This document shows positions 35,497 to 43,483 of a stretch of DNA of 64,000 bases, in pieces. Made by a program: the position numbers and the translations under genes. The notes beneath the pieces were generated by a model. It saw only the letters and a list, made by a program, of their open reading frames with translations, ran no database searches and was not told where the DNA came from. This DNA is from an uncultured SAR86 cluster bacterium. Lineage in GTDB: Bacteria; Pseudomonadota; Gammaproteobacteria; Magnimaribacterales; TMED112. The stretch spans positions 196,505-260,504 of the forward strand of contig CACNDL010000002.1 of the NCBI GenBank assembly GCA_902619265.1, in the 5' to 3' direction. Positions within the stretch are counted from its first letter, which is position 1, and the number at the start of each line of letters is the position of its first letter.

Positions 35497-36891
35497 TCAG
35501 GTTTCGAGAAATTTTATAATTTCTTTTGCTGCATCTCTGCCATGAGCTATGGCGTGAACAGCTAAACTTGACCCTATTATCATGTCTCCTCCTGCAAAAA
35601 ATTTTGGATTTGATGTTTGAAATTTATAGTCTTGATTTTCAAGCGAAATAAGGCCTCTATCTGATACATCTATATTATTCTCAGCAATGAAATTTTGTGG
35701 ATCTGCTTCATAACCAAAGGCAATTACAAGTTTATCAATATCAAGAATTCTTTCAGATCCCTCAACCAAAACCGGTTTTCTTCGACCAGAATCGTCAGCT
35801 TCACCTAATCTAGTCTCACCAATCTTAAGCTGTTTCACTTTACCATTTCCTATAATTTCAAGGGGTTGTGAATTAAATAAAAATTGTACTCCTTCCTCTT
35901 GTGCATGCTTTATTTCTTTCACTGAACCAGGCATATTTTCCCTATCCCTTCTATACACACAATGAACACTTTGAGCTTGTTGTCTTATGGCTGTTCTAAC
36001 ACAGTCCATAGCTGTATCGCCCCCACCCAAAACCACAACTTTTTTATCTTTAAAATTTATTTTTTCAGCATCGTCCTCTGACATTAAATATTCGGTATTC
36101 CTGATTAAATATGGTAGCGCCTCGACAACTCCTTCTTTGTCTTGACCATTTATGTTCCCTTTGATTGACTCATAAGTGCCAAGTCCTAAAAATATTGCAT
36201 CACTTTTGTTATTTATCTCGCTCATTTTTTTCTCATCTACTTCACAATTAAGCACAAATTTTACCCCCAATTCTTCAAGAATTTCACGACGCTTGATGAC
36301 TATACTTTTCTCCAACTTAAACTCTGGTATACCGTAGGTTAATAGTCCCCCTATTTGCGAATATCTGTCATAAACAGTGCATTTAATTCCCCTTCTTATT
36401 AAGTTTTCAGCGCATGCAAGTCCCGCCGGACCAGCACCAATAATTGAAACAGTTTTTTTTGAATAACTTGCTGCAAGTTTTTTTGGTTTCCAGCCTTCAG
36501 ATAATGCTTTATCGGTAATATATTTTTCAATTTGACCGATTGTGACTGCTTCATATCCAGTATTTAAAGTACAAGCACCCTCACATAATTTTTCCTGCGG
36601 ACAAATTCTGCCGCATATCTCAGGAAAAGAATTTGTTTCGTGACATAAATCAGCCGCCTCATGAATCGAGCCTTCTTGGGCAAGCTTTAGCCAGTCAGGT
36701 ATGTAGTTGTGAAGTGGGCATTTCCACTCACAATAAGGATTACCACAGTCCAGACATCTACTGGATTGTTCTTTTACTGATTCAAGATTATGTGATTGAT
36801 ATATTTCTCCAAATTCAATTTTTCTTGCATTGATAGGCTTGGTTTCAGGCTCAATTCTCTTGATGTCAATGAATTCAAAATTTGTTGACAT
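35497..36891 (-). CDS. gltD: Glutamate synthase (NADPH) small subunit
   Basis: GltD oxidises NADPH and feeds electrons to GltB for glutamate formation. The N-terminal Fe-S region has CLDCGNPYCEWKCPLHN and CGRICPQEKLCEGAC; then follow FAD-binding VSIIGAGPAGLACAENLIRR and NADPH-binding VVVLGGGDTAMDCVRTAIRQ. Start: the frame extends to 36960, but ATG 36891 gives the usual MSTNFEFIDIKR N-terminus and overlaps the gltB stop by 1 nt (TAATG). That leaves 464 aa, as expected. Confidence 0.96.
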   Translation of the reverse strand: MSTNFEFIDIKRIEPETKPINARKIEFGEIYQSHNLESVKEQSSRCLDCGNPYCEWKCPLHNYIPDWLKLAQEGSIHEAADLCHETNSFPEICGRICPQEKLCEGACTLNTGYEAVTIGQIEKYITDKALSEGWKPKKLAASYSKKTVSIIGAGPAGLACAENLIRRGIKCTVYDRYSQIGGLLTYGIPEFKLEKSIVIKRREILEELGVKFVLNCEVDEKKMSEINNKSDAIFLGLGTYESIKGNINGQDKEGVVEALPYLIRNTEYLMSEDDAEKINFKDKKVVVLGGGDTAMDCVRTAIRQQAQSVHCVYRRDRENMPGSVKEIKHAQEEGVQFLFNSQPLEIIGNGKVKQLKIGETRLGEADDSGRRKPVLVEGSERILDIDKLVIAFGYEADPQNFIAENNIDVSDRGLISLENQDYKFQTSNPKFFAGGDMIIGSSLAVHAIAHGRDAAKEIIKFLET

Positions 36892-39800
36892 TACGCTGCA
36901 TCCTCTCGTGTTTTTCGAATAATTCTTGAAAGGTTTTCGGCGTATGGAGTTACTATCCAAAAAAGGCTTTGATATTTTTCAAAATCTTCAAGAATTTCTG
37001 CGCCTATCTGACTGTTTGTCTCTTTCACAAAATGAGCGATTCTATCTTTTAAATATGACCTATGTGCTTCCATTTCTTGCGAGGTAATTCTGTTAAAAGA
37101 AACTAAGTCTTTATTACATTTATCAACAAAACTTCTATCTTGATCATAAACATATGCAAAACCACCAGTCATTCCTGCACCAAAATTATTACCTACAGGA
37201 CCTAAAACTATAACTTCTCCACCGGTCATATATTCACAACAATGGTCCCCACTTCCTTCAATAATTGCTTTTGCCCCTGAATTTCTCACTGCAAATCTTT
37301 CACCTACGACCCCTGTTGCATAAAATTCGCCTCCAGTGGCACCAAATAAACAAGTGTTTCCTGCTAGCACAGCTCTTTCCTGATCAAGGTATTTATTTTT
37401 TGTTATAATAATTTTTCCACCATTCATGCCTTTACCAACGTAATCATTTGCTAGTCCATTTAATTTCAAATCAACACCTTTTGAATTCCAACATCCAAAA
37501 CTTTGTCCCGCATTTCCTTTGAAATTGAGAATAAGTTTTTCTGGAAATCCCTGTCTGCCAAATTTCTCAGCTATATCGCCTGCAAGACTTGCGCCAATTG
37601 ATCTGTGAGTATTTTTAATCTCAAAATTAAATGATCCTCCTTTTCCCTTAGTTAGGTTGTTTTTAAGTTTCTTCTTTATCAGATTAGTTAGTGATTCATC
37701 ACTTAAAGAATTATTTATTAGATTCTTTTTAAGCTCATTAGATTGTTTTTTGTTAGGTCTATATCTCTCAAGCAACTTGTCAAAGCCTAATTTAAGAGAT
37801 TCATCTTCAGAATCTTTTTTGAGTTTCATGATCGATGTGTCTCCAATTGCCTCTTCCAAAGACCTTAGACCTAAATATGCAAGCTTCTCTCGAACTTCTT
37901 GAGCAGTAAATTCAAAGAATTTTTGTACTTTTTCAACTTCCCCTAAAAAGTGGTCGTTTATAATTCTTAATTGTTGTGTGGCAACACCAGTGGCGCAATT
38001 ATTTAAATGACATATTCTTAGATACTTACAACCCATAGCTATCATTGGTGCTGTACCAAAACCAAAAGAATCTGCACCAAATACTGCTGCTTTTATGACA
38101 TCCTCTGCTGTTTTTAGACCACCATCTGTTTGAAGCCTTACATTCGACCTTAGATTACTTTGAAGAAGGGTATTTTGTGTCTCAAACATACCTGTCTCCC
38201 ATGGCGATCCGGCATGTCTTATGGAAGAAATAGGACTTGCACCTGTGCCTCCATCATGGCCAGAAATGGTAATAAAATCTGCGTTTGCCTTCACAACGCC
38301 TGCTGCAACAATTCCCACTCCAGGCTCAGATACTAATTTTACTGAAACTAAAGCTTTCGGATTTACTTGTTTTAAATCATAAATTAACTGAGCGAGGTCT
38401 TCTATGGAGTAAATATCATGATGAGGAGGCGGTGAAATCAGTGTGATTCCTGGTTTTGAATACCTTAACTTTGCTATATATGAGTCAACCTTAGAGCCTG
38501 GCAATTGTCCACCCTCTCCTGGCTTTGCACCTTGCGCAATTTTAATTTGAAGAACTTCTGCATTTCTTAAATAATGTGGTGTAACACCAAATCTACCAGA
38601 AGCAACTTGTTTAATTTTTGATTCTAGATTGGTTCCATATCTTTTTGGATCCTCGCCACCCTCACCTGAATTTGAACGACAACCTAATCCGTTCATAGCA
38701 GCAGCTAAAGTTTCATGTGCATGCGGAGACATGGAACCCAAACTCATCCCAGCTGAGTCAAATCTTGATAATATTGCTTCTATTGGTTCAACTTCGTCAA
38801 TATTTATTGATTCATTTTTTGAATGAAGTTCAAAGTAATCCCTGATTGCAAGTGGTTTTCTGGAATCAACGTAAGAAGAAAAATTTTTAAATTCTTTGAA
38901 AGATCCAGATTTCAGAGAATTCTGTAAATTCATTACAACATCTGGGTTAAAGGCATGGTCTTCTCCGTTATGTTTAAATTTATGCAAACCTTTCGCGACT
39001 CTATCATCGTCTCCATCAAAAGACATTGTAAGCATAATTTTTTCATGAATTTCCTCGAATGATTCTCCTTTAATAAATGATTCATTTTTTGGGAAACAAA
39101 GATTATTTACCTCATCTGAAAACCCAATCACTTCAAATAAACCTGAGCCTCTATAGCTTGAGACATTTGAAATGCCCATTTTTGACATTATTTTCAGTAG
39201 ACCTTTATTCAAGCATTTCCTGTACGCAACACATAATTCATTTGAAGTAAGCTCTGTTGAATCATTTGATACTTTAAGTACTGATTGCAAACCGAGCCAT
39301 GGATGAACACATGTTGCCCCAAAACCAATTAAGCACGCGATTTGATGGTTATCTCTAGCAGATGCTGTGTTAACAACAACATTACAATCGGTTCTTAAAT
39401 TCTCTTTTATAAGTCTATTGTGTAAAGCTGAAGTTATAAGAAGAGCTGGTATTACAGGAACTTTGTTGCTGGATTGCTTCTCATCCAAAACAATTATATT
39501 TGTTCCTAGTTTTACAGTTTTAATAACGTCTTCTAGAACTCTTAAGATTCCATTCTTTAGACCCTCTGAATCTGAATACTCAAGTGAAAATCTCTTACAA
39601 GGAAACTTTTTATTTTTAAGTAGAAGGTTAAATTTTTTGTGAGAAAGAATAGGCGAATTAACTACAATTCTGTTCGCATGTTCTGCTGTCTCTTCAAATA
39701 TATTTAGCTCTGGACCTAGACAAGTTTCTAAAGACATAACTGATTTTTCTCTAAGTGAATCTATTGGAGGATTTGTTACTTGGGCAAATTTTTGCCTGCA

Positions 39801-41303
39801 ATTATCATAAATTGATCTTATTTTTGAACTTATTGGGGATATAGGTGTATCGTCGCCCATAGATCCTGTTGGTTCATTGCTTTCTAGAGCATAGACCTTA
39901 AGCATCTCGATTTCCTCTTTATTCAATAAGAAACTATTACAAGATTCTCGAAAATATTTATCTGATATCTCTCTCATTTCAGGTCCTGAATAAGTGTGTA
40001 AATTCGCCTCAAGATGTTTTGCATTTTCTTTTAACCAATTTCTGTAGGGTTTTGAAGCTGAGAGTTTTTTATCAACTTCATCGTTCATCAGCAATTCTTT
40101 AGTATTCCTATCGAATAAAATCAATCCTCCTGGTCCAAGCCTGCCAGTTCCTACACACTTTATATTTTTAGTTTTATTCGATCCAACCTCAGAGGAGACG
40201 CAGACTGAATCGTCGTCAAAATACTCAATTCTGGCTGGTCTTAATCCGTTTCTGTCTAGAAAACATGAAACGTAATCGTCGTTTTGGAAGCATATTAGAG
40301 CAGGCCCATCCCATGCTTCCATATGCATAGAGTTATACTCATGAAAAGCTTTTTCATCCGGGTCCATCAGATCAGTATTTTGCCATGACGGTGGAATTAG
40401 CATTCTCGCGGCCCTACCAACATTTATGCCACCTAAAGTGAATAATTCTAGGATATTATCCAGAGAAGATGAGTCAGAACCTTCCTGATTTATTAAAGGA
40501 TAATATGCTGACAAATCACCTAATTTTCTTGATTTAAAATTTTGAATCCTAGCTGTTGCCCAATTTCTATTACCAGAAATTGTATTTATTTCTCCATTAT
40601 GAGCAATGTTTCTATATGGTTGAGCCAAGTGCCACTTTGGAGAGGTATTTGTTGAGAATCTAATGTGAAAAGTTGCTGATGCTGATGTATGAGACGGATC
40701 AGCAAGGTCAGTATAGAAATCTGAAAATACATCAGGATGTATCAGCCCTTTATACACGATTGTTTTAGCTGAAAAACTTACGCAATAGATCTCTTTCTCA
40801 GCACAAAAATTATTATCAAAATATTTTTTTATCTTAAAAAAAGATGGTTCATGATTAGAAGCAGTATTATTTTTTTTGGGGGCAACAAAGATTTGAATTA
40901 TCTTAGGACAAGATTTTTGTGCTAATTCTCCAAGTATATTTTTCTTGGCATCTACTTCTCTTTTGGCGATGATTTTAAGGTTAAATTTTGAGCAAATTTT
41001 CAAGAAAATTTTCTGATAGTCAAAATTATTTTGAACCATTAAGACAGCAATTGAAAAATTATTTGGTAGTATTAATTTTTGCTCTTCTAAGAGTTTTTTT
41101 TGGAAAAACTTTCGATCAATATCCAGTAAAATACCGCACCCATCTGTTGTCATTCCGTCATAACTTAAAGCACCTCTGTGCTTCATGTTCGATAATGATA
41201 AAAGAGACCTTTCTATTACAGAATGTGCGAATTCGTTGTTTTTATTGAATAAGACGCCTGTACCGCATGAATCGTGATCTTTTATATCAATTTTACCTTT
41301 CAT
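36891..41303 (-). CDS. gltB: Glutamate synthase (NADPH) large subunit
   Basis: GltB transfers the glutamine amide to 2-oxoglutarate. At 1470 aa it has the standard order: N-terminal glutamine amidotransferase with catalytic Cys13 (DSCGTG, so a 12-residue propeptide would be removed), a central domain, the FMN-binding synthase domain ([19 protein letters not shown]) with the 3Fe-4S cysteines in [20 protein letters not shown], and a C-terminal GXGXG beta-helix ([21 protein letters not shown]). It diverges from the glutamine-riboswitch/AmtB transcript, with 284 bp between start codons. Confidence 0.97.
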   Translation of the reverse strand: [1470 protein letters not shown]

Positions 41304-41397
41304 TAAGTTTAAAAATACTTTATTCGTTTTTTACTGTTGACTTTTTCATTATAGGGTATTAATTTGGATAATGTTAATTTATAACTTGTGTTTATAA

Positions 41398-41422
41398 CCC
41401 ATACTCCATGGGAAAAAAGGAG
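41398..41422 (+). ncRNA. Candidate H-type mini-pseudoknot, unit A
   Basis: CCCAT (41398-41402) pairs with ATGGG (41408-41412). The loop CTCC (41404-41407) is complementary to GGAG (41419-41422), joined by six A. This makes an H-type pseudoknot with an A-rich third loop. Unit B, 51 nt on, repeats the layout with a compensatory pair change. Structure is predicted from sequence only. Confidence 0.55.
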
Positions 41423-41448
41423 CCCATATAACATGGGTTAAAAGTTAA

Positions 41449-41472
41449 ACCATCTCCATGGTAAAAAAGGAG
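41449..41472 (+). ncRNA. Candidate H-type mini-pseudoknot, unit B
   Basis: ACCAT (41449-41453) pairs with ATGGT (41458-41462), loop CTCC (41454-41457), six A, then GGAG (41469-41472). Compared with unit A, the outer C-G pair has become A-U while loop, A-run and GGAG are unchanged. It ends directly before the glutamine-aptamer core (the gap is six bases). Confidence 0.55.
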
Positions 41473-41476
41473 CGGA

Positions 41477-41526
41477 ATCGTTCATCCATTTACGGACGGA
41501 AGTAAGCAACAGCTGAAGGAACGCGC
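41477..41526 (+). promoter_or_regulatory. Glutamine riboswitch (glnA RNA motif)
   Basis: The conserved blocks of the glnA-type glutamine aptamer are present in order: ATCGTTCATCC, GGACGGAAGTA and GAAGGAACGCGC. P1 pairs CGTTC (41479-41483) with GAACG (41519-41523), P2 is a short TCC/GGA hairpin (41485-41487 with 41494-41496), and P3 is AGC-AACA-GCT (41505-41514). GGAAGTA is the loop-E element. It lies 62 nt before the start of an outer-membrane protein gene followed by amtB, and diverges from gltBD, which is the right metabolic context. It should tune ammonium uptake to glutamine. Confidence 0.85.
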
Positions 41527-41575
41527 TTAATTTTCTATGCAAGGTTTGACCCTTTTTTTTATAGCGCATTTTTTT
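41523..41575 (+). terminator. Possible riboswitch expression platform (terminator-like)
   Basis: GCGCT (41523-41527) can pair with AGCGC (41563-41567), followed by A and seven T (41569-41575), directly before the AAGGAG ribosome-binding site. A second short hairpin, AAGG/CCTT (41541-41544 with 41551-41554), leads into T-rich DNA. The first stem overlaps the 3' strand of aptamer P1 by one base, so folding could be exclusive. Both stems are short, hence low confidence. Confidence 0.4.
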
Positions 41576-41587
41576 AAGGAGATGTTT

Positions 41588-42184
41588 ATGAAAAAGGGAA
41601 TGATGACATTAGTCATGTTTCTAACTTTACCGTTGTTTGCTGATATATCTGCAAACTTCTCTTTTACGACTAACTACGTTTGGCGAGGCATGACTCAGAC
41701 AATGGATGATCCTGGCTATAGTGGTGGTTTTGACTATACCGATGATTCTGGTTTTTACGCTGGAACATGGGGTTCAAACGTTGCTTTTGGGGGCGCAGGT
41801 CTTGAATTAGATACCTATGCTGGTTACTCGGGAACTTCTGAAGTAGGCTTTGACTATGATATAGGTTACATAGATTACGCTTATCCTGGTACTACTGGAG
41901 ATTTTGAGGAGTTTTATTTCTCAGCATCATACGACGGTATAGGTTTTTCTTACTATTCACCTCTTGAGGGCGATGCTGATTATCTAGAAGCTTTCTACTC
42001 AGATGATTACGTAACGGTTTCATATGGTGATTACAATACTTATGGAACGAATTTCTTAGTTGCTTACTCTTTCCCATTACTGGGATATGACGCTTCAATA
42101 GGTTACACCTCATTTGAGGCAGAAGAAGGCACTGAAATGGAAGACGAGGACGGAGTTGTCTTTACATTGAGTGCGTCTTTTTAA
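41588..42184 (+). CDS. Gcw_chp/TIGR02001-family outer-membrane protein
   Basis: ATG 41588 has AAGGAG 6 nt upstream and yields a signal peptide (MKKGMMTLVMFLTLPLFA); in-frame ATGs at 41537 and 41582 are less likely. The mature protein, about 180 aa, is rich in Tyr, Gly and Asp and alternates as a beta-barrel: SANFSFTTNYVWRGMTQT is the family's typical opening, and it ends with aromatic-alternating VFTLSASF, as outer-membrane barrels do. The family is repeatedly found upstream of glnK/amtB, as here. It may be a porin for nitrogen compounds (inference). Confidence 0.88.
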   Translation: MKKGMMTLVMFLTLPLFADISANFSFTTNYVWRGMTQTMDDPGYSGGFDYTDDSGFYAGTWGSNVAFGGAGLELDTYAGYSGTSEVGFDYDIGYIDYAYPGTTGDFEEFYFSASYDGIGFSYYSPLEGDADYLEAFYSDDYVTVSYGDYNTYGTNFLVAYSFPLLGYDASIGYTSFEAEEGTEMEDEDGVVFTLSASF

Positions 42185-42202: not shown

Positions 42203-43483
42203 ATGGATGAATTAGCATTTGGTTTAAATACCTTTTATTTCGTTGTAATGGGAGCACTTGTAATGTGGATGGCTGCAGGATTTACCATGCTTGAAGCAGG
42301 ACTTGTGAGAAAGAAAAATACCGCAGAAATAGTTACAAAAAACATTGGCCTTTATTCGATAGCCTGTACGATGTTTATGATTTGTGGTTATTCGGCGTTG
42401 TATGCGTCTTCTGGAAATGGCGTCATACCTGATTTTACTTTCGAATTTATGCATACAGAACCCGGCTCTGCTGAAGTTGAGTATGTTGATGGTTCAGTAT
42501 ACGCCGCGGGCGCGTCTGACTTTTTCTTTCAAGTAGTTTTTGTTGCAACGGCAGTTTCTATCATTTCTGGTGCAGTTGCAGAGAGAATGAATCAATGGCC
42601 ATTTTTTGCTCTCGCAGCTTTCGTGGCTGGGTTTGTTTACCCAGTGCAAGGATACTGGAATTGGGGTGGTGGATTCCTAAAAACTGCAGTTGAAGATGGC
42701 GGTTATGGCTACATAGATTTTGCAGGTTCTGGAACAGTTCATCTCCTTGGTGGTGCTTGTGCATTAGCTGCAGCGCTATTTATTGGCCCTCGTATGGGCA
42801 AGTACGGAAAAGTTACTGGTAAACTCGCTGGGCTGTTTCCGAAAGCAAAAACAAATAAACTCTATGGTGCAAATATGCCTATAGCAGCTCTAGGTACTTT
42901 CATTTTGTGGCTAGGTTGGTTTGGTTTTAATGGTGGATCATGGCTATCAACTCACACAGCAGAAGCAGCGCATGGCTTTTCACACGTTGTAATGAATACA
43001 AATGCCGCAGCAGCTGGTGGAGTTATTGCTTGTTTACTAGTAGCAAGAATTTTCTTCAAGAAAACTAATCTCATATATGCATTGAATGGTGCGATTGGTG
43101 GTTTAGTTGCAATTACAGCTGGACCTGACACTCCTACCGTGTTTCAAGCAACTATGATAGGTGCTGTTGGTGGCTTACTTTGCTATGGCTCTTTAGTAGC
43201 ATTTGAACAATTCTTCAAAGTTGATGACCCCGTTGGAGCTATTTCAGCTCACGGTACAGCTGGTGTATTTGGTGTAATGGTTGTTCCTCTTACTAATGAA
43301 GGTGCAACTGTTATGGGACAAGCTGCAGGCGTGCTTTCGATTGCTGCCTGGGGATTTGTATTAACTTATGCATTTTTATTCTTGCTGAATATGGTAGTCC
43401 CAGTAACCGCATCTGAAGAAATTCAGAAGAAAGGATTGGATGCTGAAGAAATTGGTATAGAAGCTTACCCAGAATTTAAATAG
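42203..43483 (+). CDS. amtB: Ammonium transporter
   Basis: An inner-membrane ammonium channel, 426 aa, with about 11 helices. Family motifs: LNTFYFVVMGALVMWMAAGF, MLEAGLVRKKN, DFAGSGTVHLLGGACALAAA and WLGWFGFNGGS, the last two covering the pore His and the selectivity region; the second pore His is in ISAHGTAGVFGV. It begins 18 nt after the Gcw_chp stop, with AAAGGATAG upstream. A glnK gene, nearly always beside amtB, is absent, so PII control must come from elsewhere. Confidence 0.97.
   Translation: MDELAFGLNTFYFVVMGALVMWMAAGFTMLEAGLVRKKNTAEIVTKNIGLYSIACTMFMICGYSALYASSGNGVIPDFTFEFMHTEPGSAEVEYVDGSVYAAGASDFFFQVVFVATAVSIISGAVAERMNQWPFFALAAFVAGFVYPVQGYWNWGGGFLKTAVEDGGYGYIDFAGSGTVHLLGGACALAAALFIGPRMGKYGKVTGKLAGLFPKAKTNKLYGANMPIAALGTFILWLGWFGFNGGSWLSTHTAEAAHGFSHVVMNTNAAAAGGVIACLLVARIFFKKTNLIYALNGAIGGLVAITAGPDTPTVFQATMIGAVGGLLCYGSLVAFEQFFKVDDPVGAISAHGTAGVFGVMVVPLTNEGATVMGQAAGVLSIAAWGFVLTYAFLFLLNMVVPVTASEEIQKKGLDAEEIGIEAYPEFK

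Follow-up and report, generated by a model that had tools for sequence, protein, structure and literature searches.

Several described RNA elements resemble, in part, the structures reported here. The preQ1-I riboswitch is a compact H-type pseudoknot with an A-rich third loop (L3), the guanidine-II riboswitch (mini-ykkC) consists of tandem tiny elements with conserved loops located 5' of metabolic genes, and luteovirus-type frameshift pseudoknots, such as that of BWYV, comprise ∼25–28 nt with a short stem 2 (P2) and an A-rich L3. The repetitive hairpins of mini-ykkC have been noted in the literature, as have tandem aptamers in glnA RNAs and the STAXI motif, which consists of two or three tandem copies of a pseudoknot (PMC2864571). 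The array of three tandem mini-pseudoknots (designated A, M and B) that we find in a genome from the SAR86 order, 5' of a type-1 glutamine riboswitch (glnA motif), resembles STAXI in layout and not by homology; STAXI, however, exhibits UUCG tetraloops and sits near DNA-handling genes. Like preQ1-I, the units are compact, of H-type and equipped with an A-rich L3, but they have no spare loop nucleotides for a pocket and occur in another gene context. Mini-ykkC is composed of simple hairpins and not of pseudoknots, and the units, although similar to BWYV-type pseudoknots in size, short P2 and A-rich L3, are located in a non-coding leader with neither a frame nor a slippery site. SAR86 leaders likewise often carry tandem glutamine aptamers; the array and the long-range helix P0 described below lie outside the 53-position aptamer model. 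A search of positions 41340–41600 against Rfam 15, up to E 10, returned the aptamer as the sole known family and no pseudoknot family (the STAXI, preQ1-I and guanidine-II models gave no match), in agreement with the original prediction that the units match no known family; a GP20-a match (16.5 bits vs. a cut-off of 47.2) is due to chance. In the open-access literature searched, we found no glutamine riboswitch described as having an array of pseudoknots upstream. Tandem pseudoknots as such are known from STAXI in another context, and what appears to be new is their presence as an accessory array in the leader of a glutamine riboswitch.

The window, that is, the whole stretch of 64,000 nucleotides that was analysed, contains on its plus strand a glutamine aptamer at 41477–41527 (Rfam RF01739, E 2.3e-11) that exceeds the gathering score of its family (62.2 bits vs. 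35) and is thus a full member, an assignment which concerns the aptamer and not the pseudoknot units. It is followed on the same strand by (i) a probable Shine-Dalgarno sequence AAGGAG (41576–41581) kept in 14 leaders, (ii) a gene for a Gcw_chp protein of 198 residues (PF09694, E 6e-21; 41588–42184), and (iii) an ammonium transporter (amt) gene (PF00909, E 1.3e-82; 42203–43483), so that the suggested placement of the units, just 5' of a glutamine aptamer in the leader of an ammonium-uptake operon, is borne out. On the minus strand, an open reading frame of 1470 residues (36891–41303), which by its sequence looks like a glutamate synthase large subunit, diverges from the intergenic region harbouring the array. 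A promoter scan of the leader gave matches at chance level only, and a search for an intrinsic terminator 3' of the aptamer in the amt leaders gave a four-pair stem with a U tract which is not conserved. The ribosome-binding site of six amt leaders (L034, L040, L044, L055, L059 and L061) can form a local hairpin (CUUA.../...UAAGG), the inner bases of which vary among species, and which is a candidate for a translational output step.

All three units lie on the plus strand. In unit A (41398–41422), stem 1 (P1; CCCAT/ATGGG) closes a 5-nt loop, A followed by CTCC (41404–41407), which pairs across an L3 of AAAAAA with GGAG (41419–41422); the unit occurs in 14/14 amt leaders with all cells paired. 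Unit B (41449–41472) is built from ACCAT/ATGGT, a 4-nt loop CTCC (41454–41457), again AAAAAA, and GGAG (41469–41472), with 67/70 cells paired in P1 (the outer pair being A.C in three genomes) and 56/56 in P2. These two units were identified correctly, and at the correct positions, in the original prediction, which had assigned them the same loop and overlooked a third unit. The latter, unit M (41423–41447), constitutes the spacer between A and B and was found by a mechanical scan for H-type pseudoknots: its P1 is again CCCAT/ATGGG (70/70 cells paired in 14 genomes) and its third strand (TTAAAA) is likewise A-rich, whereas its second stem, formed by TAAC (41429–41432, preceded by A) and GTTA (41444–41447; 55/56 cells), is unrelated to CUCC/GGAG. 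The array is contiguous (25 nt, 25 nt, a 1-nt gap and 24 nt), and its last unit stops 4 nt short of the aptamer. The bare pattern of a 5-bp stem, a 4–5-nt loop and a 4-nt loop complement located 4–8 nt further on is not rare in such AT-rich DNA (12 instances on the plus strand of the window vs. a mean of 6.2 in shuffles); two units within 80 nt, however, arose in 3/250 shuffles and three in 0/250.

For comparison, we collected glutamine-aptamer leaders at 60 loci of the SAR86 order and added others from additional genomes of a second genus, providing 23–37 distinct homologous units per alignment. Among 37 distinct units, 97.9% of the cells are paired, and neither this percentage nor the covariation score was reached in any of 500 shuffles, it being understood that the set holds paralogous units from one leader and that the sequences are not independent events. 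Changes on both sides occur at three of the four pairs of stem 2 (C-G/U-A; U-A/A-U/C-G; C-G/A-U), and covariation is weaker, yet still present, when unit M is omitted and the remodelled units of genomes G012 and G015 are included. P2 of unit M by itself exhibits no compensatory variation. In stem 1 the outermost pair alone varies, and it is unpaired in 4/37 units. The compensatory change on which the original prediction was built, from C-G in A to A-U in B at that outer pair, is therefore true of this genome, but the position is A.C in B of 3/14 relatives and represents the least constant pair. The solid covariation resides instead in the stem between loop and GGAG and, together with conservation, upholds the predicted H-type shape and the selection of an RNA structure. 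At glutamine synthetase loci, a stem 2 of the second unit was found mechanically in many cases but is not claimed here, since it is often no better than in shuffles. Among the glutamine synthetase leaders of the window's genus, the unit exhibits 94% identity vs. 43% at fourfold-degenerate sites of the downstream gene. The reality of the observed units is thus confirmed, being settled by conservation.

The distribution of the units follows that of the aptamer. A covariance model of the unit, applied to 203 genomes of the order as had been proposed, scores above 35 bits in 17/21 genomes of the window's genus and in 10 belonging to the second genus, at glutamine-aptamer leaders; among the matches listed, strong ones occur only 5' of glutamine aptamers, and matches below 28 bits are without a nearby aptamer at the loci examined. 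Units are always in the orientation of the downstream gene. A search for the double unit in front of amt/Gcw_chp loci had been suggested; three units are present in all 14 amt leaders found in the window's genus. The glutamine synthetase leaders of that genus possess a single canonical unit, followed by a hairpin and a nearly invariant GTTAAA, and in the second SAR86 genus, which belongs to another family, a canonical unit precedes genes for glutamine synthetase, a TonB-dependent receptor and Gcw_chp. An M-type unit is also found 5' of Gcw_chp in genome G120 (L267). Of at least 85 loci from pattern scans of genome and viral contigs that were scored with the model, at least six exceed 40 bits; for five of the six listed, a location 5' of a glutamine aptamer is confirmed, and L203, the sixth, has the score of the G013 leader. 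Many of the matches listed from these scans are chance matches, and a relaxed pattern of P1 and L3 retrieved the known leaders and scattered single matches. One locus classed as viral (L251; IMGVR_UViG_3300005074_000578) has a SAR86-type glutamine synthetase leader with a unit and two aptamers, and is perhaps a misclassified host fragment. One other lineage of the class has glutamine aptamers; the array is absent there. Substitutions breaking the pairing in relatives, which had been named as evidence against the units, are encountered at few loci, and pairing is kept elsewhere: in G012 and G015 unit 1 (the counterpart of unit A at other loci) is converted to a CTCC...GGAG hairpin without stem 1 (CTCCTTA/TAAGGAG type), the glutamine synthetase locus of G020 has CTCC/GGTG, G034 has lost the unit at its TonB receptor locus, and G010, G011 and G019 each have a single reduced unit. 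The aptamer is retained where units are lost, whereas the converse was never seen.

A second conserved feature, the long-range helix P0, links the array to the region beyond the aptamer. Its 5' strand GUUAAACC (41444–41451) and its 3' strand GGUUUGAC (41543–41550), both on the plus strand, are paired in 112/112 cells across 14 genomes; one-sided changes that always preserve pairing occur at four of the eight pairs, two-sided changes do not occur, and sliding the partner strand reduces the number of paired cells to 14–70. RNAalifold picked P0 unprompted, along with a possible extension between AAAGG of unit A (41416–41420) and CCUUU (41551–41555), the pairs of which were checked and for which the evidence is weak owing to little variation. 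When the leader is folded without pseudoknots, the computed energy minimum (–49.2 kcal/mol) includes P0, and the ribosome-binding site is located ∼25 nt beyond it. Since the 5' strand overlaps P2 of M and P1 of B, P0 and pseudoknots M and B are mutually exclusive. A41449 is invariant, including in genomes in which its partner in P1 of B is C, as expected if P0 constrains this position. At 30 other loci, an equivalent helix AGUUAAA x UUUAACU is paired in 209/210 cells, and a local hairpin GUUAAAC...GUUUAAC competes there for the P0 3' strand. In genus g8, a different pseudoknot adjoining the aptamer likewise overlaps an upstream strand CAUUCUUCC that is complementary to a downstream segment GGAAGGAUG; at five g8 loci of a glutamate synthase-like gene (L074, L076, L080, L081 and L082), a CCC/GGG pseudoknot with GAUCUU/AAGAUC, the best energy of which lies beyond that of most shuffles, abuts the aptamer.

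At L041, L042 and L035 (the third glutamine-aptamer locus of genomes G008 and G020), tandem aptamers are located 5' of a short basic open reading frame of ∼43 residues, which has no Pfam match and, in its position and size, is reminiscent of the factors that inactivate glutamine synthetase in cyanobacteria; its leader contains a further candidate unit, in which a canonical stem 1 is combined with a GUC/GAC stem 2. At L283 and L078 (G023 and G025), glutamine aptamers that score at or near the Rfam cut-off possess a large extra domain in one arm.

We suggest that, in two SAR86 genera, the array acts in cis as an accessory part of the glutamine riboswitch leader and cages a switching strand, a reading to which we assign a probability of about 45%. 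It corresponds to the earlier option of an extended aptamer, better described as an extended riboswitch leader, which fits best given that strong matches are found only 5' of glutamine aptamers and that part of the array competes with P0. There is good support for the unit structure, its selection, its restriction to glutamine leaders, the conservation of P0 and the mutual exclusion, whereas how the leader switches, and in which direction, is what we infer. The pseudoknots would fold first during transcription of the 5' end and hold the strand GUUAAACC in P2 of M and P1 of B. Binding of glutamine would then draw the aptamer ends together, so that P0 might zip up and displace these two stems, with the P0 state representing the low-expression form of the leader; when glutamine is scarce, the pseudoknots would remain in place and expression of the nitrogen genes would continue. 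As the computed minimum contains P0 and not the pseudoknots, kinetics would have to favour the latter as the fold that arises early. As for the proposed sign, type-1 glutamine riboswitches tested in cyanobacteria increase expression with glutamine (PMC6316151), and a low-expression P0 state for the nitrogen-assimilation genes of SAR86 is assumed from physiology. In favour of caging are also the combination of one geometry with two different second stems in the three units and the analogous overlap in genus g8; counting against it are the one-sided nature of all changes in P0 and the missing compensation in P2 of M. Caging also leaves the most conserved part unexplained, because the canonical unit at glutamine synthetase loci does not overlap with P0; the competing local hairpin could explain the conservation of the shared 3' strand at these loci.

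It is a distinct, if minor, possibility that the units form a factor-binding site, at which a trans-acting protein or small RNA reads the invariant CCAU/AUGG stem and the A-rich strand near the transcript 5' end and thereby supplements the glutamine switch with a further control, at the level of stability, anti-pausing or translation. The base identity of P1 is invariant in 37/37 aligned units even though compensatory changes could occur (the rows were selected by motif and are thus partly biased), repeated units would suit a multivalent binder, and unit 1 is not explained by P0. However, A-minor contacts with the A-rich strand could also fix the identity of P1, the confinement of strong matches, among those listed, to the vicinity of glutamine aptamers speaks against such a site, and there is no candidate factor. 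CsrA, one protein to which the earlier idea of a decoy might apply, was found in 0/16 genomes of the genus vs. 7/10 other genomes of the order, which makes both a decoy of this kind and a CsrA-binding leader unlikely. A decoy for the ribosome or a Shine-Dalgarno decoy is likewise unlikely, as GGAG is not kept (GGGG, GGAA, GGTG and GTTA occur). Pairing of CUCC with the gene's own Shine-Dalgarno sequence is not kept, CCCC/GGGG and UUCC/GGAA units occurring before AGGAG, although a pairing of CAUCUCC with GGAGAUG is possible for unit B of this genome. A role of a tiny frame ATG GGT TAA following GGAG was likewise rejected, the frame being present at amt leaders and absent from most glutamine synthetase leaders.

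We regard it as unlikely that the tandem mini-pseudoknot constitutes an RNA class of its own, i.e., a second sensor or factor-binding regulator of nitrogen status that forms a two-input device with the aptamer in SAR86. Its narrower version, in which an array of mini-aptamers senses a small molecule independently and provides two-input logic with the glutamine aptamer, is quite improbable. The compact H-type fold recalls preQ1-I, sequence conservation is high, and repeated tiny RNA elements have proved to be aptamers before (mini-ykkC). What makes this version of the earlier proposal less likely is that the 4–5-nt loop is consumed by P2, so that a preQ1-like pocket would have little space and none is evident, and that several lineages have lost or remodelled the units while keeping the aptamer. 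Moreover, the letters of P2 vary freely (CUCC, UUCC, CCCC, UAAC), and units were never seen without a glutamine aptamer among the matches listed.

Of comparably low probability is a 5' structural element without a switching role, acting as an insulator or as a stabiliser of the mRNA 5' end. The units are probably located near this end, and the plain hairpin that replaces the pseudoknot in G012 and G015 would suit such a role. From this role, however, one would expect neither a conserved sequence, nor a constant geometry, nor an overlap with P0. Finally, a DNA operator in which a dimeric regulator reads CCATGG and CTCC...GGAG as inverted half-sites, symmetric changes of which would mimic covariation, is very improbable considering that the two inverted repeats are interleaved with different centres, that the orientation is always that of the gene, that second stems differ while the geometry is the same, and that the units hold a fixed place 5' of an RNA aptamer and overlap a conserved RNA helix.

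The caging of P0 thus remains the reading we prefer, and the array is probably a component, not described before, of the switch governing nitrogen-uptake genes. SAR86 is an abundant bacterial group of the surface ocean, in which leaders of this kind are located in front of the genes for ammonium uptake and glutamine synthesis. If the array indeed cages a switching strand from upstream of the aptamer, it would represent an unusual expression platform.
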